A stretch of DNA of 64,000 nucleotides from Ulva prolifera (taxonomy: Eukaryota; Chlorophyta; Ulvophyceae; Ulvales; Ulvaceae): the NCBI GenBank assembly GCA_023078555.1, contig CM041204.1, positions 406,923 through 470,922 on the forward strand. Reading direction: 5' to 3'. The number at the start of each line of letters is the position of its first letter. Position 1 is the first letter of the stretch. Shown piece by piece: positions 1,604 through 48,800 of this stretch. The notes below the pieces were generated by a model. It had not been told where the DNA came from, did no database searches, and worked only from the letters and a program-made list of their open reading frames with translations. The translations under genes and the position numbers were made by a program.

Positions 1604-2294
1604 CTGGCGCGTCAGGGGGGGGCCGGGGTCAGAGTCCTCTGTACGCTGGCCGGGTTGGCTGGAGCACCGGGGTGTGGGTCGGCTCTGCAGATCCTACACA
1701 CAGCAGAATTCTAAACGTGATGTGAAACTGTACCATCATGTGTAGGAGCTGTAGGATCTGTTGATATAGGTTCAGCTGACACGGCGGAAGGGTCAGTGTA
1801 TCTGTAGGATGATGTGGCGCTATGTCATGGTGCAAAGCTCGCGTCCAGAGCAAGACGTGCACAGGCATACGGGCGAGGGGCGCAGACACACATGAATCTG
1901 CAGTGGAGAACCCTCCATGACTTCCGTTGGACTCCTCTCAAAGTGATCGCTTGACGGTGCATGTTCAGCAGGAGGGCGCCGGGGGATGCGTCCCGGCAGC
2001 CACGCCGACACAACACCATGCCACACACTTCAGATACGACACTAAGTGACTCAGTGAAGCACGGCAGCGGATGCTAGCGGCAGTGCGGCCCCACTCACAA
2101 TCACGCTGCGGCGTCGGCTCACACACTGCGGCGTTGGCCCCAGGGCTCTCTTATAACGGCACCGCAGCGACGCCACCTATCAGGGCTCCCACACGAACCG
2201 CAGAACGAGCTGAACGAGAAATCAAAGTCATTGCCCCGACAGAGGCGGGGGGGGGGATAAGCACAGGGTTCTGGGTTTGGGGTCAGGATCGCAC

Positions 2295-4113
2295 CTCCCA
2301 CGCTGCCGGCGCCGAGCTGCCGCAGTCCAGGAACAGCCGGTCCAGATCCCGCAGCAGAGCATCCTCCGCCTCCCACAGCCTGACATCGTGCGCCAGCGGC
2401 CGCGCATGCATGCATGAGTCTCGCGGCTGTGACTCGCCGCCATCTGCCGGCACCCCAGGGTCTGCGCCAGTGCCATAGGTACAGGCGTGGTTGACGCCAG
2501 CGGGGCCGGCAGGGCTGTTGTGAGCCATGTGAGCGGCTCCACGGCAGTGCGCGGCGAGCCGGGCCTCCGCGGCGGCGACTTGCCGCGCACACGCCGCCGC
2601 GCTCTCCCGCGCCTGCGCCTCCGCCGCGCCGACGGCCGCGATGAGCTGCAGCTCTTCCAGCGTAGCGCGCAGCACGGGTCGCGCCGCGAGCGCACGGGTG
2701 ATGAGGTGCACGAACCGCGGCTCGCATGCTGCGGCCACAGCATGCAGCAAGCGGCGCCGCACGTCGGGCCAGCCGCCGGGGGTCCGCGGGGAGCCGCGGA
2801 GGAGCGCGAGCCAGAGGCGGGGGAGCGCGAGCTGAGTCAGCGTGATGCCGAGGGCCCACACGTCTGCCGCGAAGGCGTCATAGGGCTGTGGGATGCCGAG
2901 GGTTTTTGCGTGGAGGCACATGAGGACCTCTGGGGACATGTAGAGGGGCGTGCCGGAGGCGGCGGTGCATTGCGCTGCAGCGTCGGCGCCGCAGATGGCG
3001 AACCCGAAATCGGCCACGCATACGTCGCCGTTGCTGCCGCGGAGAACGTTGTGGGGCTTGATGTCGCAGTGTGCAACCCCCGCCGCCTTGGCCACCAGAA
3101 GGCCTTGCACGAGGTTCTGCGTGGTGCGCCATCGCTCAGACGAGGTGATGCGCGTGCCCGGCTGCTGCAGGTGGGTGAAGAGGTCTCCCCCCGGGAAGAC
3201 TGGCATGAGTAGTGCTTGGACGTAGGATGTGCGGAAGGTCGGGCTTGGAGTGGCTGAGCGGTCTGCGGCGGTGGGCTCGGGGTGGGCGACTATCGCTGCG
3301 AGAGGCACCACGTGGGGAGCATTCCCAGCGTTAGCAGCGTGGATGCAGGAAAGCGCCTTAGCCTCCCGGACCAGGCCTCCGCGTGCATTGGGCAAGGCCC
3401 GCTTGATTGCGAGTGTCTTTGCCGAAGTCTTGTCGGCGATGGACACCGTGGCTTTGAAGACCTGCAGGAGTGGAGCCCCGGCGCTCGTCAGCTGGTGAGG
3501 TTCCAATTGGTCACAGCTCGGGCTGCCGAGGTCAACGGCGGTCTTCGCAAACTTACAATCAAAGGACAGATGACCTGATGAAGCGCAGATTCGGAATGCC
3601 CGGCAGTCTCACGAAGGACGCATGCAAAAAGTTAGCCGGCAAACAGCAGCAAGCGCATGAACGAACAAGCATCGATGAACAGGCCGGCCCTGGGGTGCCC
3701 ATCATGTCGCGCCAGCAGAGCTACACCGAGGTGCTTCAGCGACTAATTAGATGCTTGGTGGTATGTTCTTATATCTCGGAGATAGGCGGGGAAGGTGCAG
3801 GTGAGCAGTCAAGCCCGCGAAACACAATCCCGCATCAGTTGTGCCCCAACGATGCTCCTGGAACGCCGAAAAACACAGACTGATGATAATGTGTTCTATT
3901 TGCCTCTTGCGTCAGCGAAATTAAGGTTGTCAGCAGCCCATTGGGAGCTGCAAGGATGCGTGGTCATGTGGGAACGGCAGCGCAGGCAGCGATACACACA
4001 CAGCTGCAGCTCTGTCAGCTTACCGTGCCGTGATTGCCCTCGCCTAGTGCATGTGCAGCGCCTTTGATGTGTAGCACATCTACGACTGGGCAGCATCTGT
4101 GGATTTCGTGCAT
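2295..4113 (-). CDS. Ser/Thr protein kinase, kinase-domain exons (kinase 1)
   Basis: Protein kinase that should transfer phosphate from ATP to Ser/Thr; substrate unknown. Two exons join in phase 0: 4024-4113 (30 residues, ATG start, ends in the glycine loop LGEGNHGT before donor GTAAGC) and 2295-3461 (acceptor CTCCTGCAG, begins VFKATV). Visible motifs: glycine loop 23-30, ATP lysine in AIKRA at about 50, catalytic loop HCDIKPHN (Asp about 163, Asn about 168; the usual HRD Arg is Cys), DFG Asp about 181, SPE in place of APE about 206-208, then DVWALG. A coiled-coil-like Ala/Glu/Arg stretch follows the domain. The open frame runs to a stop at 2283, but donor GAG|GTGCGA at 2295 fits the habits of this genome and would splice in phase 0 to the exon at 1603. 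The kinase domain is certain; subfamily is unknown. Upstream in-frame stop supports the start. Confidence 0.88.
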
Positions 4114-10495: not shown

Positions 10496-11890
10496 TTACG
10501 TGTGACGGGTAGTGCCATGTCCGACGGCAACAGGGGTTGTACCTTGAGCCTCAACAAACACGCCTGGCACCTCTTCGCCGGTGCCCCGTTCGGTGGCGAC
10601 GGCCGGGCGCGCGATGCCGACGATGGCGTCGCGGGTGCGGGTGTGGTGTTGTGCCTCGAGGTCGAGGTTGGTGGATTTGCGGTGGTAGGCGTCATGGTCA
10701 TCGGAGTGCTGCACGGCCTTGTTGTCCGGTTTGCTGACGAGAAGGGAGTCCAGGAGGAGCATGAGTAGGGAGGCGCCGCCGAGAACACAGAAGCCGGCTG
10801 TCACAACCTGCAAAATCACCGTGACTCTCAGTGTACAATGGACGGTACGGATGTGCTTAGGAGTTTGGCATCATGCCTGCCTCAGTCGATGTGGGGTGTC
10901 GAAATGGGGTGCCTGTTCATGGAATAAGCCGCAGAGGCAGGTAGCGCTGTGAGAATGGCTCAGGGCAACTTTAGCAGTATGCACATCTTGTGGAGACGAG
11001 GACTGTGACTGGCGACATATCTCAGAAGGCAGTGCGGCAAAATTAGTAATAGGATATCGCAAGTGATAAGCAAAAGCTGGCAGGTGATTGACAGGTGGTG
11101 AGGCAGGGCTGACCTCCATGCGCTTCTCCATGTCGCTCTTGGCAACCCACGTCGCATCGTAGAAGGAGTTGGCCATGAGGATGGTGAGGGGGGCAAGCAC
11201 AGCGAAGAAGGAGGTGGAGGCGCCCCGGGCCATGTCAGGCATGAAGGAGGCAACAACCGCCAGCAGAGGAGGAATGGTGCTCAGAGCCCAGACAAACCAG
11301 AAGAACCTACAGCAGGTCTGGCAGTCAGGCTGGGAGTGTGAGGTGAAGCAGCTCAGCTTTCCGAGCATGCCATCGTTCACAAACGACACCGCTGACATGT
11401 GCAATTGGAGACGGTATGGCCAGGAAGTGGCGGCAGGCCCCAGGCAGCACATGCAGCTTGACTGGAATATAATCATGTGAAAAGATTCGCATGTTAGGCT
11501 GCTCAAGGGATATGCCAATGGGGAGCACAACATCGCACAATCTCGCCAGGGATTGATCAGATGACACTCCGAATGCAGACAAGTCTTTTCCGAATGGATC
11601 GCTGGTTGATCGATGCCGCGGAGTGTAGGGCATTCGTTTGAGCTGCAGTTCCAGGCGCACCTGTACCCCTTGTTGCAGTCCCGGCCCACTGGCTCGTTGA
11701 AGAAGGCAATATTTTCGTAGCCCAGGAACTGGTTGCCTGTGGACCTGACATGATCTTTGCACTCGTCCTGGATCAGAGCGAGGCCGGCCAGCGTCACACC
11801 CCACCCGAGCAAGTACAGGATGTTGCCTGCCTGGTACAGCATCCTCTTGCGTGGGCTAGCGCCGTTGCTTGCTGTGCTCATTGACATCAT
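10496..11890 (-). CDS. four-transmembrane protein, tandem family copy A
   Basis: Unrecognised integral membrane protein of 244 residues from three exons: 11661-11890, 11114-11306 and 10496-10807, joined at phases 2 and 0 (donors AG|GTGCGC and GAG|GTCAGC, acceptors CTGTAG and TTTGCAG). Predicted membrane segments are residues about 23-40, 78-98, 107-127 and 143-164. The loop after segment 1 has conserved Cys in DECKDH and in PVGRDCNKGYR, suggesting a disulfide in an extracytosolic loop. The N-terminus is short and basic (PRKR), so probably cytosolic. The C-terminal tail after segment 4 is hydrophilic (HSDDHDAYHRK, then a DAIVGIA segment). Copy B has nearly the same exons 1 and 2. Start chosen at ATG 11890 because copy B has an ATG at the same offset, giving 230 coding bases in exon 1 of both. 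Function unknown; four-segment topology is like many vesicle or plasma-membrane proteins. Confidence 0.82.
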
Positions 11891-12659
11891 CTTGACCAAT
11901 AGCAGATCCCTGCACAGTAGATCGGCATCAGGACTGGATAGGATGCGTCGTAGACGCGACGCGAGGGCAATAGTTACTGAAGACGAAGCAGAATGGAGCC
12001 GCGAAACCCATGCAATACACACGATGACATTGAGCTGAACGAGTCATGACACTGATGGCGATGCTAAATATCTCGGGTCGGGTTGTCTCGACACCAGGGA
12101 CGGGCAATTCAACGTCCAACGATCTGGTCGGCGGCAAGCTTTGCGATTTGTTCGTCGCTAGTATGCACCTGACACATAAAGTGGGACCAAAAAGGATGTT
12201 TGAAAAAGGATTTTTCAGAGTCAGGCTCTGCTAGTAGTGCACTATTGTGGTCATGGTGGCGCGCATGGACGTGGCAACCGCGGTTGTCGTGCGTGGGGTA
12301 CAAGGCATCTGCCAGCGGCTGCCACAAACAGTGCAACCTCAGTCGCGAACCCAGCTGTGACAACAGCATCCACAACACTAAGAGGTGTTCGCCACACATG
12401 CAGGCTGACCGAACAAACGCAAGCAGGACGATTGTGTACTCATTCTGGCAGGCCCGATCCCATCCCTGCCAATGTCGACCGTTCACATGGTATACGTACA
12501 GTCAGACAGATACATTTCATGGTATCTCCAGCTCGAGAGATTGCAGAAGCATCGACAGTTGACTGCGATGCTGCAGACACTCCGACTCTGTGGAGCACAT
12601 CAGCTCCAATTTAAAATGTAGTTGGTGTGACAGACCTGTAGAATTTGCGAAGTGAGGAG

Positions 12660-12995
12660 CTTTGACGGATGGACAAGGTGCGGAGGAGGCTGGGTAACTG
12701 CTGGAGTGTTGGACAGTGACGGTGTTAATGTCTGTTGCCCCGTACACTGCCATATATATACAAGTGCACGCGCCGTATACAGCTACCGCACACCTTGCGA
12801 ACGCTACCTCCGTCCATTCTGGGCATTCTGGGCAGAATCTAGATTCCATGGCCCCATGCAGTGGTGTGCACGTGTCGCCCAGACATGCAGCGCTGCACCT
12901 CTGCCTTGCTGTCGATGATGTGGGGTCCCGTGCACGGTCTCCATACGTGCCGGCACAAGCGTGCGGCGCATGCATGTGTTGCTCGAGATCTCTTG
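12660..12995 (-). promoter_or_regulatory. conserved block upstream of copy A, with TATA-like core
   Basis: This block aligns with 18614-18930 upstream of copy B, and its core aligns with 24086-24170 upstream of copy C. Shared elements in plus-strand order are a cggatgga..cggaggaggctgg stretch, a TATA-like run at 12751-12762, a ccgtccattctgg segment, a catgcagtggtg segment and gtgcggcgcatgcatgtg. Distance from the TATA-like run to the copy A ATG is 861 bases. It may be the promoter with a long or spliced 5' leader, or simply part of the duplicated segment. Reading frames differ between copies, so it does not look coding. Confidence 0.5.
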
Positions 12996-14701
12996 ACGGT
13001 GTTGGGCCATCGTGGTCGCGCCTCCATTGATTTTTGTGTTGTACAAATGAATCGAAGGTGTGTGGATGTACGGGTCGCTTGATGGCGAAGCTGGGTAGTA
13101 TGGGTTGGTGTTCTGCCATGCAATGCCGCGCGCAATTCTAGTTCTCTCACGGCGCCTTAACTGACCGGCTGCAGGTTCCGGCTTGCGAGGCTTCGAGAGG
13201 TCGCCGCCTGGCGTGCCAGAAATACACTTGGTGCAAGTAACTTTGAAACCTGTAACTTGTCGATGCCAGGCAGTCGCAAGGAGGACATGGGATCGAACAC
13301 CCCGGGCCCGCAAGAAGCAGCAAGCGCTTGGACAGACACGCCAGGATAAATCAGGTGCCTTCCATGCCGCATCAGCAGGACTGCCACGAGGTTCTGTACG
13401 GAATTCCAGTCATGTCTTGGGTTCACTTTGACAGGAGGAGGAGGCCGATGGGAGCAGCCACGTCGGAACACGACTTTGCAACAGCTCTGTGCTCACGACG
13501 CGCAAAGAGTTCCAATCACCAGCATCAAATGCTTGACGTGTTATTTCTCTGAGCACATAGCTTTGGAACTGACGCGATGCGTGGTTTTGTAAGCATACGC
13601 CAGTGCAGACACCAAATTGGGGCACTGAACCGACGATGGCTGCCTAGCCTGCACGTGCAACGCCGTCAATTTGACCAAGGATACATTCGGCCACCATATT
13701 TAAAACTTCTACATCTCTTCAGCTGGAGTTGCAGTGAAAGCGCACGCCTTGCACCAGCTTGCCCGCTCCCTACATGCGCTGGAACACGAACGCGGTATCC
13801 GGCCCAACATGATCAATAGCGTTTGGCCAGCAGTCAGCCTACCCCGCACGGCCTACGCTGGACACGACATTGTCATGCTTGTAAAATGTATCTCGGACAG
13901 ATGCATCCTCGCACACAGTCAGCCCAGCCTGATCATGACAGACGCACTGCGAGTCTAGCCATTCAGCCATGTTGGTTGAACGAGCTTGGAGTCGTGCATG
14001 CCAGCAGCAGGGTGGGTCAACTGATCACACACAGAATTGGCTTCTTTACTTGCCGTCTGGGCGATATATCATCTAGTGACTGTGTTGGTCGGGAACTACT
14101 GGTGTTCAATCTCAACCACTCCCACTCTCACACAAGCTCCCTGTGTTGAGCAGCTACCGTAACACAGAGCTGTGCAATGCCGACCTCGGTTTTGTAGACA
14201 TTGCAGGTCACCTGATCCATGCAGCTGTGATACAAGGACTCAGTTGGGGATGAAGCCACTGCTTGTGCCCCAAACTCAGGACCGCCCTGCTCCCCGCCTG
14301 CCCAGGCGCAGCATCTGTCTGGATGCAGGATCCGCGCTGCCACACTCACAATGCACAGGCTTCCCTCACGCTGCCGAGCAGTGCACTCAGGCTGCCAGGC
14401 TGCGCATTCCCTGGGATCCTGCACATCATTCTGTGCGGCCGAGAGCCTTGGATTGCAGGCCTGACTGATGTCACAGGAGAGCAAATGGATCCAAACGGAG
14501 ACAGGCATGTTGTTCCTTGCAATCAGATTTTTCAATGTTCTTGAAGGTATACTGCTCAGTAAATGCAATGGTTTGTTGAGGTACAGGACATGGATTTCTG
14601 CCGAAAACTCTTCCACAGGCGTACGCACGACCCCACTGAGCAGCTTCGCACACACTCTTCTGACTCTGGCAGGTCTGGCACCTCTTGCTTTGCTTCACAG
14701 T

Positions 14702-14801
14702 GCAATCCTTGCTTACGCACCAGAATCACATCCGGCTTGCAAGTTGTCTGAGCAATCCTTGCTTACGCACCAGAATCACATCCGGCTTGCAAGTTGTCTG
14801 A
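14702..14801. repeat. two perfect tandem copies of a 50-base unit
   Basis: Unit 14702-14751 beginning gcaatccttgcttacgcacc is repeated exactly at 14752-14801. Identity of the copies points to a recent duplication or an assembly artefact. Confidence 0.95.
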
Positions 14802-15186
14802 GCAACTTGTGAGCTGATGACCGCTCGCGCGGGTCCTCACTGCATTCCTGGCCCTGGTGTCGCTGTTGCAATGGGCTTGCCTCGCGGGCGGAACTGGCTG
14901 TGCCTCGCGGGTGCTGGCCCGCATTGACGACCCTGCTCCTAAGCAGCCCGCAAACGCTGACGTGCATATCTGCGTATATGGCGGTGTCCGGGCCAAAGCG
15001 GAACACGGCGCTTGTGTGCTGCTGTCATGTTCCTTCACTGGAGAGATGGAGTCGTGTGTCCATGGGTGTGTGACCACACAACTGCCATGGGCTGCAAACG
15101 AGGGGCAGAAGTATCTTGGAGCTGAACAGGTGAAGCGTACTCTGATCATTCGAATGTACACCGGCAGTGCTGCCTGCCTTACAACT

Positions 15187-15356
15187 TCATATGCATTGCC
15201 TGAATTCATGGTACACACACAAGTTAATGACCCACTGCAACCACCTCCGTATGCATTGGCTGAATTCCTGGTACACAGACAACTTCGATCAACAACTTGT
15301 GTGTGTAGTTGTCTGTGTACCAGGAATTCAGCCAATGCATACAGAGGTGGTTGCAG
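15187..15356. repeat. fold-back repeat with 52-base arms plus a third direct copy
   Basis: Arm 15233-15284 and arm 15305-15356 are reverse complements with one mismatch in 52 and a 20-base loop. A diverged direct copy of the same motif (tatgcattgcctgaattcatgg) lies just before at about 15190-15230. No coding sequence is present. It resembles a transposon-derived hairpin or palindromic duplication. Confidence 0.92.
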
Positions 15357-16449
15357 TGTGTCATTGAGGCATGGCGCCAATCTTATACACTGTGTGGGGC
15401 AGTCAACACATCAGCATCCGCCCGGAGTCGATTCGTCACTCACGACCCACTCCAGGCTCCACCGGTACCACTCACAAGCAGTCTACGTAGACATGTAACC
15501 ATTTCCGGCTCAGTAAATTTAGATATACTTTACTTTACCAGCTATACTTAAGGAATTCCTGCATGCATGCGGGATGTCATGGGGCGGAACTTCATTTCCA
15601 GTCAAGGAACAACCAATGTTCTTGAGGCAGGTTGATTGTGACGTATCGTGGGGTGTGATATGATCAGTTCGTCGTATGAAAAGCGGTCGTGTGAAATATG
15701 CCAGGTTGGGGGCGGCCGCCCAATGTGGAGTGGAAAAGCAGACTGCAATTTGGTGGGCCTGCCAACTTGGTGGGGGCAGCATGGCACGGCACGGTGGGAA
15801 CCAATGATAACCACTCCTCACATGCATATGTCGCTGCCGTTTACGACACACAGGCCACACCATGTACCGCTGCGGTCGACTGCATGTTGCAGATGGATTG
15901 ATTCAACGCCGAATGGCTTGAGCACACTGTGCATGGCATGCCCTTGCAACGTTTCACACGATGGCAGCACAAGCAAGGTACACGTCAGATTGCATCATCC
16001 ATTTTACAGGCGTTCCTCTACCTTGTGCAACATCCTGGTACTGGTCGACCCTCTAGGGTGGCGTGGGGTACACTGCCGCACACCGCCCGAAGGAAATTAT
16101 GCATCATCAATGAGCAATGATCAATTATCATCCGTCACGACTGCACAAGCCGCACATTGGCCTGGACGGAGACGTGAGACCAAACGCCCCTTATCAAAAA
16201 GCTACAGCCCAAATCCAACCACTTGTTGCTCTACCGATCATGTAGCTGTGGATGGTATGCAGCAACATGCCCATGCACAATCACCACAGGATACACTTCC
16301 CTACCAGCATCTACCATCAGATGCCGATGGGATTGTGAGAACCAGCCTCAACAAACCTCCACAAACACCCTGCCGGAAGTGCTCAGTGCACACTGCATAC
16401 ACGCTCGAGGGCGCACAAAGGGGGCGCAACGCTGTCTCTGTGAGCATGC

Positions 16450-17883
16450 TTATGCGCGCTGGGCGTTCCCGCGGACGATCGGGGTTTGGACGACTGGGGG
16501 CGCAATGGCGGGCTCAACAAATGCGCCGCGGACGGCGGCGCCGGTGCGGGGCTCAGTGGCGACGGCTGGGTGCGCGATGCCGACAATCGCGTCGGCGCGG
16601 GTTGTCTTGGTGGTGTGGCTGTGGGTGTGATGCTGGGACTCAGCGTAGTCGAGGTTGGCGGACTTGCGGTGTGCGGTGCGGTCGTGGTCGTGATCGTGGT
16701 CGTCATGCGGCACGGACTTGTTGTCCGGGGTGCTGACGAGGAGAGAGTCGAGGAGAAGCATCAGTAGGGAGGCACCGCCGAGCACGCAGAAGCCGGCAGT
16801 CGCGACCTGCACAGCATGAATCTTCCATTAGATGTTGGGGAGAGTGGTGACGGTTCCGCATCTGACTTCTCGACTGGGACAAGGTGGAATGGTGCCTACG
16901 TGGCAGACATGCAAGGAACGCATGTACTTGTCGAGGACATTACGGAGGGACTTGGAATAGCAGCACGGACCGCAGGATAGGAAGAATGTTGACGCTAGGG
17001 ACAGTGGTGCAACATTGTAACCCACGTCACAGCTACTGGTGCAAGGACAAGAAAAGTGGTGAGGCAGGGCTGACCTCCATGCGCTTCTCCATGTCACTCT
17101 TCGCGACCCACGTCGCATCGTAGAAGGAGTTGGCCATGAGGATGGTGAGGGGGGCAAGCACGGCGAAGAAGGAGGTGGAGGCGCCCCGGGCCATGTCGGG
17201 CATGAAGGAGGCAACGACCGCCAGCAGAGGAGGAATGGTGCTCAGAGCCCAGACGAACCAGAAGAACCTGCAAGGCGCCTGGCGATGAGTGTGTGGATGT
17301 CTTCTTGCGAAAGTGGCATGCCGGCATGACGAATTCAGCTCCTTCATCTGTGATTGCGCACACGCGCACATGGATGATAGTGTGGCCTAGAGGTAAAGAC
17401 ACCAGACAGGGCAATCTGCTGCATTCTTGACGAAATGTACTGTGTCAAAACATGTACCAGTTCCTGGTGAACGTGGCGCAGCTCGTGGCATGCATGCAGA
17501 TGGCAACACAAGATGCAACTGCATACAGCCTCGGCTGATCTTCACTCACGGACCCCGCTCTGGCAGATAGGTTACAGACTATGTATCTTTAAGAGCAGTT
17601 TAAGTGAATATGAGGAGCACTGCACACGCAATTTAGCTGTGTTTGAAACACACCTGTATCCCTTGTTGCAGTCTCTGCCCACTGGCTCATTGAAGAAGGC
17701 GATATTCTCGTAGCCCAGGAATTGATTGTCGGTAGTCCTGACGTGGTCCTTGCATTCGTCCTGGATCAGAGCGAGGCCAGCCAGCGTCACACCCCACCCG
17801 AGTAAGTACAGGATGTTGCCCGCCTGGTACAGCATCCTCTTCCGGGGGCTGGCGCCATTACTCGCTGTGCTCATTGACAACAT
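16450..17883 (-). CDS. four-transmembrane protein, tandem family copy B
   Basis: Paralogue of copy A, 259 residues from exons 17654-17883 (230 bases), 17075-17267 (193) and 16450-16806 (357 with stop). Exon lengths 1 and 2, splice sites and phases are identical to copy A, and residues 1-141 differ at only a few positions, yet both introns are unrelated in sequence and length (386 and 268 bases against 354 and 306). The C-terminal tail is longer than in A and rich in His and Asp (HDDHDHDHD, then QHHTHSHTTK), a composition that could bind divalent metal. The DAIVGIA segment of copy A is kept, so the tail is coding. Lies about 6 kb from copy A in the same orientation. Function unknown. Confidence 0.82.
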
Positions 17884-18613
17884 ATTGATACTACTTGGGC
17901 CCTGCATGGTATATCAGCATCAGGACCGCACAGGACAGAGCGGACGCGGTGCTGCAGAAGCCGTGGCTGATGCCGTGGCGAAACCCAAGCCGCAAGAAGG
18001 CATGAAGAAGACAATAAAAAAGTGACAACATCGATGACAACCCTAGATCAGAGCCTGCGTGTCGCTGGTCATGTACATGCAGAGGCGAGCTCGTTCGCCG
18101 TCAAACAGTCAGGTCGGCCATCAGTCAGCCATGCGCTCAGCAAATTACTAGTTTGCGCTATGAAAAAGTCACACATACGCAGCCCGACCAAACATCATTT
18201 TATACCCAGCTGGCCTGCACTGAACAGTGGCCTTGGTGGCCACGCATGGACGACGAGAGCGCGGGCGGTTAGGCCGCGAGATACAAGGGACCTGCCACTG
18301 CTAGCGCAGCCTCAGTCATGAACCCAACACCAGCATCACCGACCTGAAGTGGCCGCCTACACATACAGAACTGTACAAACCACGGCAGCTTGAACGTCCA
18401 CATGTAACTTCCGGCAGGCCGGTCCGTGGCCATGGTCGCACATTGGTATCGATCGGACAGACGTCTATCGATACAATGAGCAGACGCATCTCCCGCGATG
18501 TGCGACCAAGACGCTGTTCCGGAACACAACTCTGGACCAGGTCACGCCAATTACAATTGCAGCTGGCGCGACTCACCTGAAAACTCTCGAAACTCGGGAG
18601 TAGCGCTAGCTGT

Positions 18614-18930
18614 GTCGGATGGACGAAATGCGGAGGAGGCTGGATGACTTCTGGTGCGTCGGGCAGAGCAGGCGTTGGTATCCACGATGCGGGCACGATG
18701 CCATATATGTACACGCTCCCTACAGCTGACCCATGCCATGCGCAGCACCACCGCCGTCCGTTTTGGCCATTCTGAGCGTCACCTAGCTTGCAGCGTCTCA
18801 TGCAGTGGTGCTCACGTGCCGCCTAGCGCTACACCTCGGCCTCGCTGTCGACGCTGTGCGGCCCCGCGCTCTGTCTCCATACATACCGGTACACGTGTGC
18901 GGCGCATGCATGTGTCGCGCATTCGCCGCT
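18614..18930 (-). promoter_or_regulatory. conserved block upstream of copy B, with TATA-like core
   Basis: Counterpart of 12660-12995. The TATA-like run is at 18702-18712, 819 bases from the copy B ATG. The segments around it (cggaggaggctgg, ccgccgtccgttttgg, catgcagtggtg, gtgcggcgcatgcatgtg) keep the order seen upstream of copy A. Confidence 0.5.
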
Positions 18931-21649
18931 GTCCGGCCCCATGACGCCTCAACTGCCTCAGGCGATGGTACTCCTGGCCACACAGGCGCCTCCCTTGCGC
19001 TTGTAACGCCGGCTGCAGGTCGACACGTGTCATGGCGCACATGCGGCCCCAGACACACGAGCTTTGCGCACGTAAGCGTTCGATGAACTCGCCATGCTGT
19101 TGTCCAAGCTTAGCCGAGGCGCCTTTTCATATGGCTGAATGCGACGCTGCTGCGTACAATTTAGCATGACCGACGTGGCGGTGGCGCGTGCGTCGCGGCG
19201 GGCAGAACCAAGAGTCCCATGGCGCGCGCCCTGAGGGAAACCAAACGCTGCGGCAACTTGTCGAACTGCAGAGATCGACAACACAACGCCGCGCCGCCTC
19301 CTCACCGCGGTACGGCCGTACCGCCCACGACCGCCGATAGCTAGCTATAGCAAGTTGTTAGCGATGATAGCCACCAGCGCTACAGGCACATCTAGATCCA
19401 GCTGGATCTGCAGCTAGCGAGTGCGTGCAGGGCTGGCGCTCCCCGGGGAGGCGCCGAACGTCAACCATGAAGGTTGAGGGCGTTCGGCGCAAACCAGTTG
19501 TAAGTTCTCGTAAACGCTATACTGTGCACGTGGCGTGTACACGAGTATAGTGTGCCAGCTAGCCGAGCTCGAATCACACTTCATATGCATGTGGCACGTG
19601 CTGCTAGTACCACATGCTGAGTCGATCGTGTCATGCAGGGCACCAGCCTCCTGCAGCACAGGGGTACAGGCCCCTGAGCCAAGCAGCAGCAGCAGATTGC
19701 AAGGTGTGTGTACAGGTGAGCACCGCAGCCAATTGATTGGTGATTGTGGGGGGGGCCGGGGGGGACGCCCGAAGCAGCAGTACCAGCTACAGGCAGCAGC
19801 TGCACTGGCAGTGGCCATTGTGATGGTGTAAATTGTCTGTGCAAACTGCCTGTGTGGGCCCGGGTTTGTCTGTGCTGGTGTGTGTGGGTGGCGCAGGAAG
19901 GGCCTGACCACCACACCCGAGCATGATTTTTTGCAGCATGTACATCCTCTGCCTGCAGCATCGAGTGGCTCCTGCGATTGACCCAAGAGCTGCCCTGCTT
20001 TGGGTGATGGCTCTGGTGTACACGGGTCTGATTAAATTTGTGCTGCGGTGATATATATGCAGTCCCTGCATGCGCTACGTAGCCCGCCTCTGCCTCTGCA
20101 GCTGCCTCCGTCCTTGTGACAAATGAACAGTCTATGTGAGCTGACCTGGTACAAGTTCTTATTCATAATGAATTAGTTCTGCAGCATCTTGCCTTGGTAA
20201 GGCTGAGATATAGGCACCTTGGCATGCCTCAGCAGTCCGTGCTCATGCAGTGGCATGAGTCATGCCCATGACCATGTTGTTGCAGCTTTGCATCCCACAC
20301 TGAGTACAAGCCTCTTGATAGTGTTCAGCTGCAGAGTCAACACAGGCTGCCAGCTGCTGCTGTAGGCATGCATGGCAGCTAGCTGGCAGCAGGCAGTCGT
20401 CAGAGGCCTGCCAGAAGTATTGCTGCTGGCCTGATATGATCGATGTTGCTACGTTGACAGCCATGACTGATTGTTAGCAGACCCACAGTGACATGTGGCG
20501 TTGGTGGCTTCCTCCATGCCGAAATCCCATGAACATGATATCACGCTTTTTGACTTATATCAGTTGTAATTATAAAAACAACTAAAAACAACTGTACAGT
20601 GTGGCTTTCAGACCTATCTCTGAACATGTTACTTTGAACCAACCAACTTTACAATCAGAGTCCATCCGCTGATTGTTCGGCCTTTAAGCTAGCCTATCAA
20701 CAGACAGTAGTCCGAAGTTCATCATCTCACGTTCTTACACCAACTCCGTTTCATGTCGACCCCTGATGCTCGATTTTTTAAGGCTGCGTTTTGGTGAACA
20801 AAAGACTCCCACAACTAACACCCATCGCAACACACATCGCATGCAGCATCATGCTTTATCAGGACAATGGCACCCCACACGCGCGCACAAAGCGCGACAC
20901 TGACACAACACACATCATCAACCATACATCATCGTGGGACCACAGGATCATGAGCGAGACCTGGCAGCGGCAGCAGCAGGGCCGCTGCAGAAGCCAGCGA
21001 AGAGCAGCCATGTGATGCTTGGCACGAGCCGAACAGCTTGTGAGTGCCGTCTCTCATTAACATTGCCACCTGGGCCTGCCCGACAGCAACATGGGTCTTG
21101 CTCGGGCCCCACGTCCCCACCCTGAGGCCTACCAGGGCATACAGCACCACCGCGAAACTTAGCTCACCCGGTTGGCAACTGCAGCCTCCCGCTTTGCGCC
21201 ACAGGCCTGACCCCAACCCTTCTTACGTTTAGGGTCACCCTTTTTAACGCAGGTTTGCGGCAGCGCCGCAGCAGCTTGGCCGGTCACGGCGATCTCTCGC
21301 CAACAACACGCTCACACCTAGACAATGGCCTATTCAAAGGAACACGAAATTCAAATAAAAACTGGGATGCAGATGCTCCCACACATTCTCTCCAGGCACC
21401 ACAGCCACCACGCAGATTCACAAGGCCCACACGCGCAATGTCAAGCCCGACACGGGCCGCGGGCGGGGGCGTGGGGGCTCCGCGGGCGACAACGCAGGCG
21501 CGGCACGCTATCGATTCGCCAGCACCGGGCCACGCCCCCACCCGGCAGCAGCCGGCGCCCCTCCCCCTTGAAGTCAGTAGCAGGGTGGTAGCGCCCTGGG
21601 AACCCAGCCGCGCGGTAGTGCTGCCCGGACGGCCCGGCACCGGTGGCGG
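18931..21649. other. spacer between copies B and C
   Basis: No gene can be supported. It contains a G-rich run near 19748, a repeat tail near 20078-20120 (ccgtccttgtgacaaatg, related to the TGTAACACA repeats elsewhere), and an AT-richer stretch at about 20520-20800. A 190-codon minus-strand frame at 19414-19986 has no splice or domain support. Confidence 0.55.
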
Positions 21650-23380
21650 CTAGACGGCCTCGGCGGGCAGCGGCTTGCGGGCGGCGGCGGCGTCGGCGTG
21701 CTGGACGGTGGTGCTGGTGGCGGGGGCGAGCAGGGAGTCCATGAGCAGCATCAGCAGCGCGGCCGCGGAGAGGATGCAGAAGCCCGCCATCGTCAGCTGC
21801 ATAAGGAACGTGAAGTCACGGCGACATGCATACGCTGGGGTGGTTTGAGCACTGCACGAGCAGGGTGGGACTCGTGGGAGGGTGTGTTGGAATGCGTTCG
21901 GACTGGTACACAAACAATGTGGGCATGGCGGGGAGGCAGTGCTGGCGCGGCCGGGAGCGGTGCCCGTGCTGGTGTTGCACGTACAAGGGGCAGAGAGGTG
22001 CCGTGACCAGGGCGGGTGGCAGCGGAGTGGTGACCGGGGACAACTTGCAGGTGTCCGGGGACCACTTGCGCTACACCAGCTCCTTCCGCAGGAGACCGTG
22101 CAGCGGCTCGCTGTTGCAAGAACACAGGCCTACACAAGTGCACCCAAGCAAGAACACAGGCCTACACAAGTGCACCCAAGCATGCAGGCAGGCAGGGCTG
22201 GCAGGGCTGGCAGGCAGGGCAGGCGTAACAGCAGAGGCCAACAGCTGGGCTGCTACCAAGTAGATCTGCAGGTCGAGGCAGGAGGATCTGCGAAGGCAGA
22301 ACAAGACCCTTTGTGTGAGGTGGACAGGGCAGGGGATCTGGTGGCGGACCTTGACGCGGTCCTCCATGTCGCCACTCGTGACCTCGATGGCGTCGTGGAA
22401 GGAGTTGGCCATGAGGATGTTGAGGGGGGCGATGACCGCGAAGAAGGACGTGGAGACGCCCCGGGCGAGGTCGGGCATGAAGGTCGCAACGACCGCAAGC
22501 AGTGGAGGAATGGTGTTGAGTGCCCACATGAACCAGATGAACCTGCACATACCACACCGTGGATGGGTCTGACGTGTGGTGGCATCATCTGCAGGCAATG
22601 GTGGCACTCTGCGGTGCTTGTGTGTTTCCACGGCGGTGCTGTCAGCCGCTCCACCTGTGTCTTTGTAACACATAACACACCTTGCATGCCCTGATAGATG
22701 CAGTTGTAAAGGACAGAGGCCGGGCATCGAGCCGTTTCTCGGAATCCACTCGCAAATCCACTCACTCCATGGCTGATAGATGTAAGTGCGTGCATATGAG
22801 TGCATGTGTAAATCCCAGTGTGTGTCGAGATGATCCTAGGCCAGGATCCTCGAGGAGTGTGCTGGCAGGCCAGGAAGAGAACGTTGCAGCATATGAGCAG
22901 CAGCTGAGGGCCGCGTGACACGTTGATTTATTCTGGTGCTGCATGTTGTGATATGTGACTGGTCCAATCAGTGCAGGTTTGCTGGCTGCTGATCGTGTCA
23001 GGTGCAAGCCACGATGATGATGATGTCAGCTCGAGTGACCAGGCTGTGCAGTGCCAACACATGCTGCGAATATGTACAGCTCACATTGCCTTAGCCGTTG
23101 TTTAATTCTTGGATTTGCTGAAGGGCAAGGTTAGCTCCTGGGCTGTATTCTGCGAAGCACACCTGAATCCCTTTTTGCAGTCTTCTCCCACTGGCTCAGT
23201 GAAGAAAGGGATACCTCCAAGCCCTATAGCTCTTACATTGGTATCTTCGATCAGGTCCTTGCACTCAACTTGGACCATGGCGAGTCCAATGAGGGTGATG
23301 GCCCAACCGCCGAGGTACATCAGGTTGCCTGCCATGTACAGTAGCTTCTTGTGATTCTTGATGTCCACGTTCATCACCAT
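21650..23380 (-). CDS. four-transmembrane protein, tandem family copy C
   Basis: Most diverged member, 185 residues from exons 23163-23380 (218 bases), 22350-22542 (193) and 21650-21796 (147 with stop). Phases match copies A and B (AG|GTGTGC, then AAG|GTCCGC; acceptors TGTGCAG and TTATGCAG). Exon 1 keeps the pattern NLMYLGGWAITLIGLAM, ECKD and PVGEDCKKGFR; exon 2 keeps WALNTIPPLLAVVATFMPD and the ILMANSF core; exon 3 keeps the fourth membrane segment (AGFCILSAAALLMLLMDSLLA). The N-terminus (MVMNVDIKNHKKLL) and the short Ala-rich C-tail are unlike A and B. Introns are longer (620 and 553 bases). Conservation of the middle exon length to the base across three copies with unrelated introns shows selection on the protein. 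Confidence 0.82.
22117..22180. repeat. two tandem copies of a 32-base unit inside intron 2 of copy C
   Basis: Unit gcaagaacacaggcctacac.. begins at 22117 and repeats at 22149. It is followed by short ggcagggct repeats to about 22225. All are within the copy C intron. Confidence 0.85.
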
Positions 23381-24085
23381 ATCTAATCAAGGCTCCTGCA
23401 CGAGAGTGCGGACTCAAATTCGGACCCGATAAAGCGTTCACACCGTTGCGAAGTGCTGCACATGTACATGCTGAACTCGTCAGGCTGAAGAGGACGGCAG
23501 GAACGGCTCTACTGCGCAGCGGCGGCAATGACCCAGACATGCACTAACTTTTTCTTTTGTCTGCATTCGTGTGCTGTAGAAGGTGAGCAGATCACATGGT
23601 GCACTGATATCGGCTGTCGACACATGTCACGCGCGATACCTGTCCCAGTGGACTCAGTCGCCTAACAGGTGCACCGCAGTGCTAGTGAACTTCACCAGGC
23701 GCGACGGCAGGGAAAAGACAACTGAGGTACCACGCGTCAATGTCGTTGGAGAGCAGCGCATGTGAAGCTGCGAGCGGGTAACAGTCTCGTTATCCAACGT
23801 GGCACACAATATGTTATCAACAAGAGCGAGCAACAGCCTTCGCCGTCAGTGCAGCCAGCACCCGCCATTCCCATCAGGTTATGTGGACAATTTTCATCGA
23901 AGCTTGATCTGATACGACTCTGCCGTGATCTGCAGATCGGAACGCAACGCACCTGGCAAACTTCCGGAACAGACCCTGTTATGACTGATCCACCTAGATT
24001 CAGAAGCGTCGAAAGGCAACGATGCTGAAATTCCTGTTTGTTGTTATGACTCGCAGCGACTGACGGCAATGCCGCTTCGCCAGGC

Positions 24086-24170
24086 TGCGCTCGCATATAT
24101 ACACTCCATCTGGCGTGATCGCCATGCCATGCAGTATGCACTGCTTCCGTCCTCGCCGTTCTACAGATAA
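24086..24170 (-). promoter_or_regulatory. conserved core upstream of copy C, TATA-like
   Basis: Short but clear match to the blocks upstream of A and B: TATA-like run 24093-24103, then the gatcgccatgccatgcag and cttccgtcctcgccgttcta segments that parallel gacccatgccatgcgcag and ccgccgtccgttttggccat of copy B. The TATA-like run lies 713 bases from the copy C ATG. Confidence 0.42.
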
Positions 24171-24644
24171 GATTATTGCATGCAATCGTCGCACACGTGG
24201 CATCTGATCTGGCTCGCTGACGTTTATGACACATCAGCTGCCACCTTGCAAGCAGCTGCACATACAGATTGCGCGCACATATCCACGGACAATACTCATG
24301 CCAGCTCTCGCATGCATATGGCCAGGTTGCTCAGATTGGACTTTTGACTCTTTGGTCATTGACTTCTAGGATCATGCAGTGCAGTCAGAGCTTTATCTTG
24401 GATGTACATGTATGCAGGTGAGCTAACAGCGGTAAGCATTAACCACAAATGTTATCAATTGAGTAATTGCACACATGTGCAACCAATTGGTGAACGACGG
24501 GGGTGGGGGGGGTGGGGATGTGCATGCGTGTGAGGCTAGGGACTGGGGTCGTCTGCTTGGTGGTGCAGTGTGGCTGTGGTGCCCTGGGTGGGTGCTGGCT
24601 GCAGCTGCGGTGTGGCATGGAGGGGCATTGCAGTGGCAATTGCC

Positions 24645-39482: not shown

Positions 39483-42400
39483 TCATGCATCCATCTCCCA
39501 GAGCAGCTCTTCGCCCACCACGGGATGGCACCCGGCGCTATAGGCAGTCGTGCATACCATGTTTTGATCGACAGCCTGCAACCCTTTACGCCGCACATGC
39601 ACCGCAGCACGCGCCTCCCGGAACGCTATGGCGTTCCACACGACAGCAGAGACAAGGTTCATGTGTAGGCATACCGAGACGCGCCGCGTGCTGCGCGCTG
39701 CGCTGTGCTGCGGCACGCGCGTGGGGCCCAGCACGGCGGCCGCCAGCGCGAGCGCTCCAGCGTCACCGATGCCGTTCTGGCCAAGGCTGTAGACGCATCG
39801 GGGGGCCGGGGGCGGCCGGGGCCGGGCGCTGCTCCGTCGCAGCGTGCGCGCCAGCGCCCGCGCCCCCGCATCGCCGACACAGTTGAAGTCTAGCATCACG
39901 TGGGTCAGCCGCGGCATGCTGACGGTGCGCCGCGCGAGCGCATGCATGCCCCGGTGGCCGATTGCGTTTGACCTCAGGAGCAGCTCTTCAAGCGCGGGGA
40001 GCTGTGCGAGGACGCGTGCGAGCGCGGTGGCCCCAGCGCATTCCAGAAAGTTCCGTTCTAGGTTGAGGTGAGTTAACGCGGCCAGCCGCACCCCACGCGC
40101 CGAGTTGCCCCGCAGCAGGGCGTCCACCCCCTCTGATCCGTATAGCCTGTTTGCGCCTAGATTGAGCTCCTGGAGGGATGACATTTCCGGCAGCCGCAAC
40201 GCGACGGCCGCGGCGCCGATGAGCCCGATTTTGTTCCATCCGAGGTCGAGCTGCACGAGCCCTGCGGCTGCTGTCGGTGGTAACGCCGCCATCACGGCCG
40301 AGGCCCCCTCTTCTCCGAGGCAGTTCTGCGCCAGCCGGAGCGCCGTCAGTTCGCCGAGCGCCGGGAGACCCGCCGCGAGCGCCGCACCGCCGCCTCCCCT
40401 GAGGCCCAGCATTGAGAGGTCGAGCGTGCGCAGCGTGCGCAGCACGCGCAGCTGCGGCAGAAGCTGCCGCGCTGCGCCCGGCGCGAGATTCATCTCGCTG
40501 ATGGTGAGGTGTGTCAGCCGGGTGAGAGCTGGAAGACCCCGCCCCAGCGCCGCCGCATCGCGTCCAGTCAGGAGGAGGTCGCCGCCGCCGAGGCGCAGGA
40601 ACTTGAGCCCCGGGACCCCACAGAGCACCTCCGGCGGAACCTCCATGAAGGCGTCTTCCGCGTTGAATTGCATGCCTTGGTGTCCAACCGCAGCGGTCAC
40701 GCACGCTTCGACCTCTGTCCCCCGATCGTCCGGCCCGTCCATCAGAGCATCCCACAGCGCCTCATGCATGTACTCGGCGCCGTCTGTCCGCACGATCATG
40801 CTGCAGTAGCGGTCCTCCACGGTGCACCTCGCGAGGTCCAGCTGCGGCGCCGCAGCGCACAGCGTGCGCAGCACGTCAGCCGGCGGACGGCGCCCCTCGA
40901 TTGTGAACATTCCCGGTACGGACGCATACTCCGCTCGCCGGCCTTCCAGGCTGTGCAGCTGAGCAGCAAAGTTGTGCACGTATGCACGGTCGCGGACCTG
41001 GTGGGTGTCTAGCGCCTTGTGGGTGATCTTCAATCGCACGGCTTGCAGCGCCGTCAGCACAGCCAGCCGCTCGACGACTGCCGCGCCGCCCCAGCCACCG
41101 TCGCGCATTCGGTGGACGTAATGAAGAGCCAGGCTCAGCTCCTGGAGCTGCCGCATGCGTGAGAGGCTGGGCAGCACGACCGGAAGGCGGCCCGGCCGGA
41201 GTTCCTCCAGGCCGATGGCGCGGAGGTGCGGCATATGCGAGACCGCGTCCATGCATGCCAGCCCATGCGTGTCGTCGCTCGCAATCCACGTGCCTGCGAG
41301 GTGGAGCGAGGTGACGGCGGAGGCGCCCCGCAGTCGGGCCGCAACATAATGCAGCGTTCGGGCCTTGAGGTTGGCGTCGCGGAACGCATACTTTGTCACG
41401 TATGCTTTGTCATGCTCTGCGAGCAGCGGCGGGTGGAGGGTGACAGAATCGATGCGGCGCATGGCTGCCAGGGCCGCCACAGCGCGCAGCGCACAGCGCA
41501 GCGGCGCTTCCGTCTGTGGCTCCAGCGACACAGAGCGTGAGGCGTCGACGGAGGGCTGCGTGGCGGCGATGGCGGCGGGGTGCATGCGGCGCGGGAGCGT
41601 GGCGAGCTGAGTGGCTAGAGGGGCAGCCCAGACGCGCAGCACACGCAGCAGGAGGTGCTCTGGGAGGGCCTCGAGAGACTGCACATGCATGGAGGGGTTG
41701 GGGGCAGATAGCCATTGCAGTCCATGCATGCGCCCGCATGAACGGGTGCTGGGACGCTCTACTCCCCAGCACACGGTTCCCACTTGTACCAGTTGCAATC
41801 AGATGCAAATTCTGTAGGTAGTGATGACACTAGGCGACTTCATTGATCACGGGGACGGCACTGGACGCAGTGCATTCACGGGGTGAGTGCCAGAAGCATC
41901 TAAGCCTACTATAGTGGTGACGATGATCAACTGCGAAGCTTCAGGGCACACCTTCCACACAGCGTCCCGCCTAGCAGCGGCTGCAAAGCGGCCCACATCC
42001 ACGGTGTCATCCGGAGGTGCAGGCGGCTGGCTGTGTGCCTGCTCGCTCGTGGCCTTGGCCTGCGCGGTGTGGCGGCGGGAGTGCGGCCGTGCCGGGCCGA
42101 CCCCCCGCAGCACGTCCTGTAGGGTACCCCTCCGCCGCCTGCCGCTCCCGCTGCCATAGGCACCCCCGGCCCCCCAGAGGAAGGCGCGACAGAGGCGCTG
42201 CGGCGGCTGGGGGTGGCTGCAGGCGGCCCTCAGCCGTGCCGCACGCGAACGCTTGCGGCCCTCCTGTGCTCTGCATGCATGCTGTTGTGCTGCTGGCAGT
42301 GTCTTGAGTGCTCCGTGATTGGAGTCTGTTGCAGGCTCGGAGCTGGGGGGGGTAAGGGGGGCGATGTAATCGTCGACAAAGATGCGGCAGAGCCGCTCCA

Positions 42401-45828: not shown

Positions 45829-48800
45829 ATGCGCTCTGCAAGCGAAGGACATTCGCAGACGGGTAGCGGCGAAGTTGGGCAGAAGGCGTGGCGCCTGATT
45901 GATGCGTCGCTTGCGCAAGCCGGGGGCACTGTCTGCTGCATCAACATGAACCAACAGGTGTTGAGCTGTGCGTGGGTGAAGAAGATTCGGCGTCTGGGCA
46001 CGGGCACACAAGGCCAGGTGCGTTCTGTGACATGACTCTTGTCGCATCGCCCGTATCGTCTGATGCAACGCTGCCTTTGCTGCCAACCCCAGCGAATCCT
46101 GCATAGACTACACTAGGAAACAGCCACGATTAGCCTGTCAAACGCGTGCTATCGATGCAGCCCCGATTGGCGGTGACGTACTCCAGCTTAGCTAGCTGGC
46201 CTGAAGTGCACTGCGAATGCTGCAAGGCTCGAGCTCCCCTGTAGCGGACTGCATCAGCCTGCGCCCAAACGTATCCCACGTCGACAGGCACATAGGAGGC
46301 TGTGTCAGCTACTGCCAGTGTGGCGTAGTTGCAGCTCCGCCGTCCAGCGTGCCGCGATGGGCGGCATTGATGGCACTGCCACATGCATATGCATCACTCC
46401 CCTTCGAACTCGTGCGTGCATTGCCACTGTTGAATTGAACATGCCCTCGACGCGCCGCTCGTCGCTCGCGTGCACACAAAGCCACAAGCCGGGTGCAATA
46501 CCAAAACAGTGTCATTTTTGTCTGTTTACCTTATGTAGTTCTGCAGCTCCTGATCCGATAAATGCCAGAGGTTGCAAGCCGTGTTGAGATCGAAAGCCCA
46601 GCATGCATAGATGACTGCCATGTTGCGCACGTGTTCATGGACGCTACGAGATAATTCGGACACCCCGCTGGAGCGCAGCTCCGCGGTGCTAAAGCGTCCG
46701 TGCAATGCCGCATGACTACTCCGCCTTTGGCTGCAGCACTCCCATCGGGGGCACCTCCACCCCATCTGATGGCACATATGTCCCAACAGTATCTGGCATA
46801 TGCCAGATAACTTATCTGAGATAAGATATTCAGGCTACATTAGGCCTTCGAGTCTCTCTCGAGATAAACGTGGCACACAGAGATCAGTCATGTATCGCCG
46901 TGAAGACGAATACACCTGAGAAAGTGAACAGTCTCGGAACATGTACAAAACAATCATGTATAATCTCAAATTATTGATTTGTTATAACGCAATCCAGGTC
47001 AGGAAGCTATGATGGGTGCAGGTCATCGAGGCTGACGTCTGCACCGCAGGCCCTGGCCAGGGCCCCCTCGGCCACTTTGCAGTCAAGCAAGCGCACCCCG
47101 GCTGTAGCCGCAGCCTCCTCCGCGAAACCCTCGCCATGGCTCACATCCACAGCTCCCACCACCGTACAACGCACACACCCTGCGGCGGCGCGGCCACACC
47201 CACCCCTCACCCTCACATCGTCTCCGCCCACACAGTCATCGCGCGCGCTGACTCAGCACCTGATGATACAAAGCAAACCTTGGACCCCAGACCAGAAGCT
47301 CAGCTTGGCCAACCAAACGCAGAGACGCTGGGTGCTCCCAGGGGTGCACATGCACACACCCTCGTCACGAGCCGGGTTGTCGCGTACACAATGGAGGTGT
47401 TCTGTGGCGACCTCTGTGGCGTGGGTGGCGGCTTGTCCGCAGAGGCCCGGTGGCGCGTGCTCGCGCAATGCATCGACGCGCTACTCACGGCCCAAGCCGC
47501 GCGCGTCGCGCACGGCGACGTCAAAACCGCAAACATCTTTGTCCGGCAGGACGGGTCAGTCGCGCTCGGGGACTGGGCGTCCGCGCGGCTCGGTGCCGAC
47601 GCTGACTCAGCCACGGACGCGCCCAGCGGGTCCCCCGCGTACATGGCCCCCGAGGCGTGGGCGTGTTACTGTGCGCGGCAGCGGGGCTCGCGGTCCCGGT
47701 ACCGCGTCTTCCCGGCCGACGTGTGGAGCCTCGGGGTCGTGTCGATGCAGCTCGCACTCCCGGCGCAGTGGCGGCGGCTGATCGAGGCGGATGGCGCGGT
47801 GCGCGGGGAGGGACCCAGCCGGCTGCGGCTGCGCGGGAACCTCGCACGCATGCATGAGGCCGTGCGGCGCGAGTGTGAGCCGCTGACTGTGCGGTTTGTG
47901 GACCGTGCACTGGACCGCAACCCGCGCACGCGCGCGACACTGTCGGAGCTTGAGGTCTTGGCGCGGGCCGCGATGGAGGGGAAGCGGGGGCCACCAGCTG
48001 AATCGGTGCGTGCTGAGATGCCTTTGTTGATGCTTTTGTTGCACCTGCATCGATGTCTGGACTGCATGTTTGCGTTCCCCGGCACAGCAGCATGCATATC
48101 CTGTTACGAGGTGTGACACGCATGACATGCATCGGCAACATGGTAACAGCCGGCTTTGGCGCCACCGCCGCAGCAGCAGTGCATGCACGTGGCTCGGTCT
48201 AAACCGCAATGCAGCCACGCGAAGCACACTGCCGCTCTCAAGCGCGCTGTTGTCCAACGGCGACTCCTGCTGCACAGGCTGCAGAACAAGCCGCCATCAC
48301 GGCTACAACGGCAGGTGGAGGAGTCGCATTGAAATCACCGGCGGTGCGCACCACCGCCACTGAGGCATGTCCACCCTCTGAACTGTTTGGCGCCGGCAGC
48401 TGCGTCACATTCAACGGCGCAGCATCTCCCTCCACGGTTCATGCTGTGCATACTGGGCGTACAGCCCCGGCCTCGGCTCCGGCCGGGGTCGCAGCAGCGG
48501 GCGCCTTCTCCACCGGGGACCCACAGAAGCAGGCCGGAGAGCCGCCATCGCCCCTGTCCTTCGCGTTTGCCGCGCCGCAGGCGTGTGCCGGACGTGATGC
48601 AGGCACCCGCTCAGCGGGCCCGGGTCGCCCGAGCCATGATGCGTGTATTCGCTCACAAGGAGGGCATCGGTTGAGCACTACAAAAGGCCAAGGTACGGTT
48701 GGTGTTTCCAGCGCGCTGGGTTGAGGCACTGGGTTGAGTCACGGTGACACCGCCCCGAGGGTGTGCTGCGGCTTTTGTTGCACAGTATCCGGAGAATGCG

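Follow-up and report, generated by a model that had tools for sequence, protein, structure and literature searches.

Organization of the array

Three neighbouring genes lie on the minus strand of the window, by which we mean the whole stretch of 64,000 nucleotides that was analysed (G000:C9:406923-470922, from an assembly of 88,887,114 bases in 44 contigs). Gene A runs from 11890 to 10496, gene B from 17883 to 16450 and gene C from 23380 to 21650, each with three coding exons; the outer limits are exact: the stop codon of A finishes at 10496 and the ATG of C starts at 23380. The distance from start to start is 5993 (A-B) and 5497 (B-C), in agreement with the spacing of about 6 kb on a single strand that was given in an earlier note on this DNA. 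In A the first coding exon (11661..11890, with the ATG at 11890) encodes the first transmembrane segment (TM1) and the first loop, the second (11114..11306) TM2 and TM3, and the third (10496..10807) TM4, a His/Asp-rich tail and the stop codon. The corresponding exons of B are located at 17654..17883, 17075..17267 and 16450..16806 (the last again with TM4, a His/Asp-rich tail and the stop) and those of C at 23163..23380, 22350..22542 and 21650..21796 (TM4, a short tail and the stop). First and third exons follow from the gene models, and the middle exons were also retrieved by sequence match (E = 1.5e-95 for A to itself, 6.4e-86 for B to A and 2.3e-41 for C to A).

Coding exon lengths are 230/193/312 bases in A, 230/193/357 in B and 218/193/147 in C, with intron lengths of 354/306, 386/268 and 620/553 respectively. 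All six coding introns have GT-AG borders. The middle exon thus measures 193 bases in each of the three models and the phases are identical, as had been claimed: the first intron interrupts a codon after its second base, and the second intron falls between codons. The near-identity of A and B over residues 1-141 is likewise borne out by alignment, with 138 identical positions among the 141 that exons 1 and 2 encode. As homologous neighbours with common intron positions and phases, the three genes make up a tandem paralogue cluster. Overall, A, B and C look like real, selected genes from an ordinary tandem duplication of a protein whose family we could not name.

Several smaller features were seen within and between the genes. 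Intron 1 of copy A (11307-11660, 354 nt) is in frame and free of stops, so its retention would add 118 residues and leave the protein unbroken. An exact 32-nt tandem duplication is found within intron 2 of gene C (22116-22179) and an exact 50-nt one between genes A and B (14702-14801), where also an inverted repeat is located (15226-15365; 59-nt arms, 97% complementary, 22 nt between them).

Within the 88.9-Mb assembly, the family was found in the array only. The middle exon matches exactly three places, all of them in the array, and protein searches with A and with C (two residues at the first junction were wrong in both queries) yielded nine exon matches each at E up to 10, again all in the array; no further copy was found with these queries.

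Divergence and selection

Nei-Gojobori estimates over 244 codons give a dS of 0.56 and a dN of 0.085 for A/B, i.e. a dN/dS of about 0.15. By exon (1, 2 and 3) the dS is 0.69, 0.18 and 0.79 and the dN 0.017, 0 and 0.21, so that dN/dS ranges from 0 to 0.27, and the tail is the fastest-changing part (dN 0.27, dS 0.84). Comparisons to C are more distant (A/C: dS 0.94, dN 0.34; B/C: dS 0.65, dN 0.34), and substitutions among the copies follow a coding-DNA pattern. Judged by these sequence comparisons, purifying selection, which the earlier note had put forward as one of two explanations, accounts for the conservation of the exons.

The introns were compared by local score against 200 mononucleotide shuffles per comparison. 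Between A and B, intron 1 scores 43, above its shuffle maximum of 36, and intron 2 scores 54, above one of 37, whereas the four comparisons of A and B introns with those of C score 29 to 36, none above the maxima of 37 to 41. The statement that the introns differ completely therefore has to be given up for A and B, whose introns are, on alignment score, decayed relatives; no similarity to the introns of C was detected. Since their decay is what is expected at the silent divergence of the two copies, alike exons beside unlike introns need no special mechanism. The divergences would fit two tandem duplications, in which C split off first and A and B separated later (silent divergence about 0.56); purifying selection would then have preserved the first two exons and the beginning of the third, with drift in the introns and the C-terminal tail.

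Possible exon-level gene conversion

The second explanation offered earlier is conversion at the level of exons, which would have prevented A and B from diverging; exon 2 is the main candidate for it. Silent divergence is indeed locally reduced in exon 2, although regional constraint explains this too. Among degenerate codons for the same residue in A and B, 7 of 57 differ in exon 2, compared with 21 of 69 for exon 1 (p = 0.018); the contrast becomes stronger (p = 0.004) once exon 1 is pooled with the first part of exon 3, where 10 of 23 codons differ. Rounded Nei-Gojobori counts yield p = 0.002 for exon 1 against exon 2 and p = 0.0002 for exons 1 and 3 against exon 2 in A/B, with p = 0.03 in A/C and p = 0.06 in B/C for the exon contrast. 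Intron 2, moreover, opens with 19 bases that A and B have in common, which likewise speaks for conversion.

Other observations argue against it. In a Sawyer-type run test (10,000 permutations of 38 sites) the longest A=B run of common silent states spans 6 of the 38 sites, is located in exon 1 rather than exon 2 and is reached in 20% of the permutations (p = 0.20); the other pairs show no long runs either (A=C p = 1.0, B=C p = 0.59). Identity falls at the splice sites. The contrast is small at fourfold sites (8 of 31 differing in exon 1, 5 of 36 in exon 2 and 9 of 20 at the start of exon 3), and exon 2 has the lowest silent divergence in A/C and B/C as well, with a GC3 of 0.82-0.89 that fits regional constraint. 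Conversion is thus not established by these data, and we consider it an improbable cause of the likeness between A and B. We read the low silent rate of exon 2 as regional constraint, to which a small conversion of that exon may possibly have contributed.

Upstream and downstream regions

Each gene appears to have a similarly arranged 5' region. Splice-site letters suggest for each gene a candidate 5'UTR exon and, after it, a candidate 5'UTR intron of 726 nt in A (11910..12635), 675 nt in B (17902..18576) and 598 nt in C (23396..23993), all on the minus strand, with a candidate acceptor TGCAG/G 15 to 19 nt upstream of each ATG and a candidate donor 598 to 726 nt further up. Upstream of the candidate donor follows a TATA-like box and then, 95 to 112 nt beyond, a CACGTG G-box. 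The TATA box regions, read from the letters, are positioned at 12750..12762 (A) and 24092..24104 (C); the one of B (18700..18712) is TATA-like (CATATATGG, not a strict TATAWA), and the sole strict TATAWA near this gene sits within the proposed 5'UTR intron. A promoter module that combines the G-box with TGCATG was matched on the same strand at 12855..12874 (A), 18799..18818 (B) and 24179..24199 (C).

The pattern for this module, CACGTGNNCN{0,1}ACNAYTGCATG, was written from the same three promoters that it then matched. It has four sites in 88.9 Mb (the three gene promoters and one other) against none for the reversed control, and none was seen in 100 shuffles of the window. The upstream DNA of A and B is clearly related (score 312 against a maximum of 40 in 200 shuffles), that of B and C shows a slight likeness (47 against 36) and that of A and C scores 35, within the shuffle maximum of 42; a DNA search with the A upstream region matches A and B only. 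Hidden coding exons were considered for the conserved A/B upstream DNA and ruled out by stops and frame-breaking indels. Given this arrangement, each gene would have its own TATA-type promoter together with the common G-box/TGCATG module, and the copies are probably co-regulated.

Downstream, TGTAA, the usual poly(A) signal of chlorophytes, occurs 436 (A), 441 (B) and 910 nt (C) past the stop codon. As the 1500-nt stretch downstream of each gene contains two such motifs, which is about the frequency expected by chance, the support for a poly(A) signal is weak.

The fourth module site

The fourth site of the module is located at C9:4616981-4617000 (L032:5982) and has TATATATG about 125 nt further on; it is also trailed by AACGCCGTCATTGTC, which resembles the leader of gene A. 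The surrounding DNA scores 45 against A (equal to the maximum of 200 shuffles), 29 against C (maximum 38) and 53 against B (maximum 40), but in the last case the two modules are out of register. No family exon was found downstream of the site: tblastn of the three proteins against 19 kb gave low-complexity or insignificant matches only. A Pfam scan of seven reading frames at the site gave sub-threshold matches for two. It might be argued that a small regulon is centred on the array, in which a green-alga-restricted four-helix family with a transport function of its own shares its promoter module with a distant fourth target; we regard this as unlikely.

Other features of the window and the genome

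The window has 48 open frames that reach 200 aa or more, and 20 of them were scanned with Pfam. Protein kinase domains (PF00069) are present at 2283-3608 (minus strand) and 47013-48116 (plus strand), and a 771-residue open frame with leucine-rich repeats (PF13516, E = 1.3e-15) at 39483-41798 (minus strand). The open frame at 55263-56486 (minus strand) matches PF05887, a low-complexity repeat family, below threshold: it scores 31.1 bits (E = 2.6e-07), where the cut-off is 100. Chlorophyll a/b-binding genes give 38 exon matches in the assembly at E <= 0.001. For one such reading, the top totals among the best 60 of 80 PDB matches belong to two multi-domain LHCI chains of 9vfj, and the best single-domain match among the same 60 is 7dz7_V (E = 3.2e-98), from what we take to be a Chlamydomonas entry. 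On these grounds the host was taken for a green alga.

Protein features and structure model

The hydropathy profile has four segments in A and B, and overlapping windows of C fall in the same four regions, so that the four-transmembrane plan proposed earlier is upheld. With segment limits set by hand, the first loop counts 35 residues, the second 7 and the third 15. The Cys-containing loop ECKD..PVGxDCxKGxR is present in all three proteins, as had been reported, and the first loop holds two invariant cysteines. The N-terminus has three K/R and either no acidic residue (A, B) or one (C); together with the neutral to acidic character of loops 1 and 3 this favours an N-in, C-in orientation. Tails differ largely in size and composition: 78 residues with 7 His in A, 93 with 10 His in B and 23 with a single His in C.

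AlphaFold2 modelled copy A, read through both introns, as four long helices, but at a mean pLDDT of 37 the model is too poor for a fold to be drawn from it. The alignment that was folded (A4) is without the exon-3 rows of B and C; the fragment alignments A2 and A3 had been dropped as they placed TM4 on TM3.

Family searches

Pfam, at E up to 10, returned only unrelated weak matches (best E 0.078), with no profile match to claudin, MARVEL, CASP or tetraspanin. NCBIfam gave no match for A and C. In PDB sequences the queries A, C and a three-copy profile gave only chance matches at E up to 10 (best E 0.23, 0.7 and 2.3), and the searches of IMG/VR (three queries) and GTDB contigs (two) gave short-pattern stretches (78, 53, 41, 93 and 47), none of which was confirmed. 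The earlier author's failure to recognise a named family is thus shared by all five libraries; however, these are not eukaryote protein collections, and the lack of a match in them is no proof of a new family. A literature search for tetraspan, claudin or MARVEL proteins in green algae, at the level of listings, gave no paper.

Possible functions

By analogy, the array may encode small four-segment membrane proteins from co-regulated tandem copies, whose protomers assemble into a small-solute channel that is LCI1-like in plan; we put this forward tentatively. Both ends of the protein would face the cytosol, and a disulphide between the two invariant cysteines would pin the first outside loop. 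The channel would then consist of several protomers, located in the plasma membrane or in a different one, and the copies would differ in the tail, which is rich in His and Asp only in A and B. PDB sequence searches up to E = 10 found no homology to any channel.

A somewhat less likely reading, also by analogy, is that of a tetraspan membrane organiser, which would gather in membrane domains and use its tail to bring in partners, in the manner of MARVEL, claudin-like and CASP-like proteins. The general plan is the same (four segments, a short second loop, cysteines in the first outer loop and a variable tail), but Pfam, searched up to E = 10, returned none of these families. The present evidence does not tell organiser and channel apart; between the two we lean, with well under even confidence, towards the channel. 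Doubtful in comparison is a metal-handling membrane protein with a His/Asp-rich tail that binds metal ions: the numerous histidines of the A tail (7) and the B tail (10) would suit it, but the tail of C is short and holds one His, the tail changes fastest between A and B, and no Pfam match to metal transporters was obtained. That the models are spurious or the genes pseudogenes is very improbable given the three open frames, the splice sites and phases in common and the low dN/dS, even for models that were read from the sequence letters.

If the family is truly outside the named ones, its four-helix protein is one more orphan among the numerous membrane proteins of algae that have no function assigned. 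The array comes with a built-in comparison, as two near-identical copies and an older one differ mainly in the tail. Chlamydomonas has a CO2 channel built on a similar plan, which would make transport worth a test. As genome evolution, the case is ordinary.

Comparison with known systems

Claudin, MARVEL, CASP and tetraspanin proteins are tetraspan families in which an outer loop carries cysteines. A, B and C share the four segments and such a loop with them and differ in being without a profile match up to E = 10.

According to a passage in PMC9614477 (citing Kono et al. 2020), LCI1 of Chlamydomonas forms a homotrimer of four-helix subunits and may act as a gated CO2 channel; the protein is also treated in PMC8320531. 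The array proteins are similar to LCI1, the plasma-membrane CO2 channel of Chlamydomonas reinhardtii, in being small membrane proteins of a green alga with four transmembrane helices (as described for LCI1 in PMC9614477). PDB searches up to E = 10 gave no sequence likeness to it, in a collection that may or may not include an LCI1 chain.

As for the array itself, its one departure from ordinary tandem duplicates is the silent rate, which is locally lower in exon 2. In all other respects the likeness is close: the copies lie on one strand, intron positions and phases are the same, conservation fades at the splice sites and the introns of A and B have decayed.
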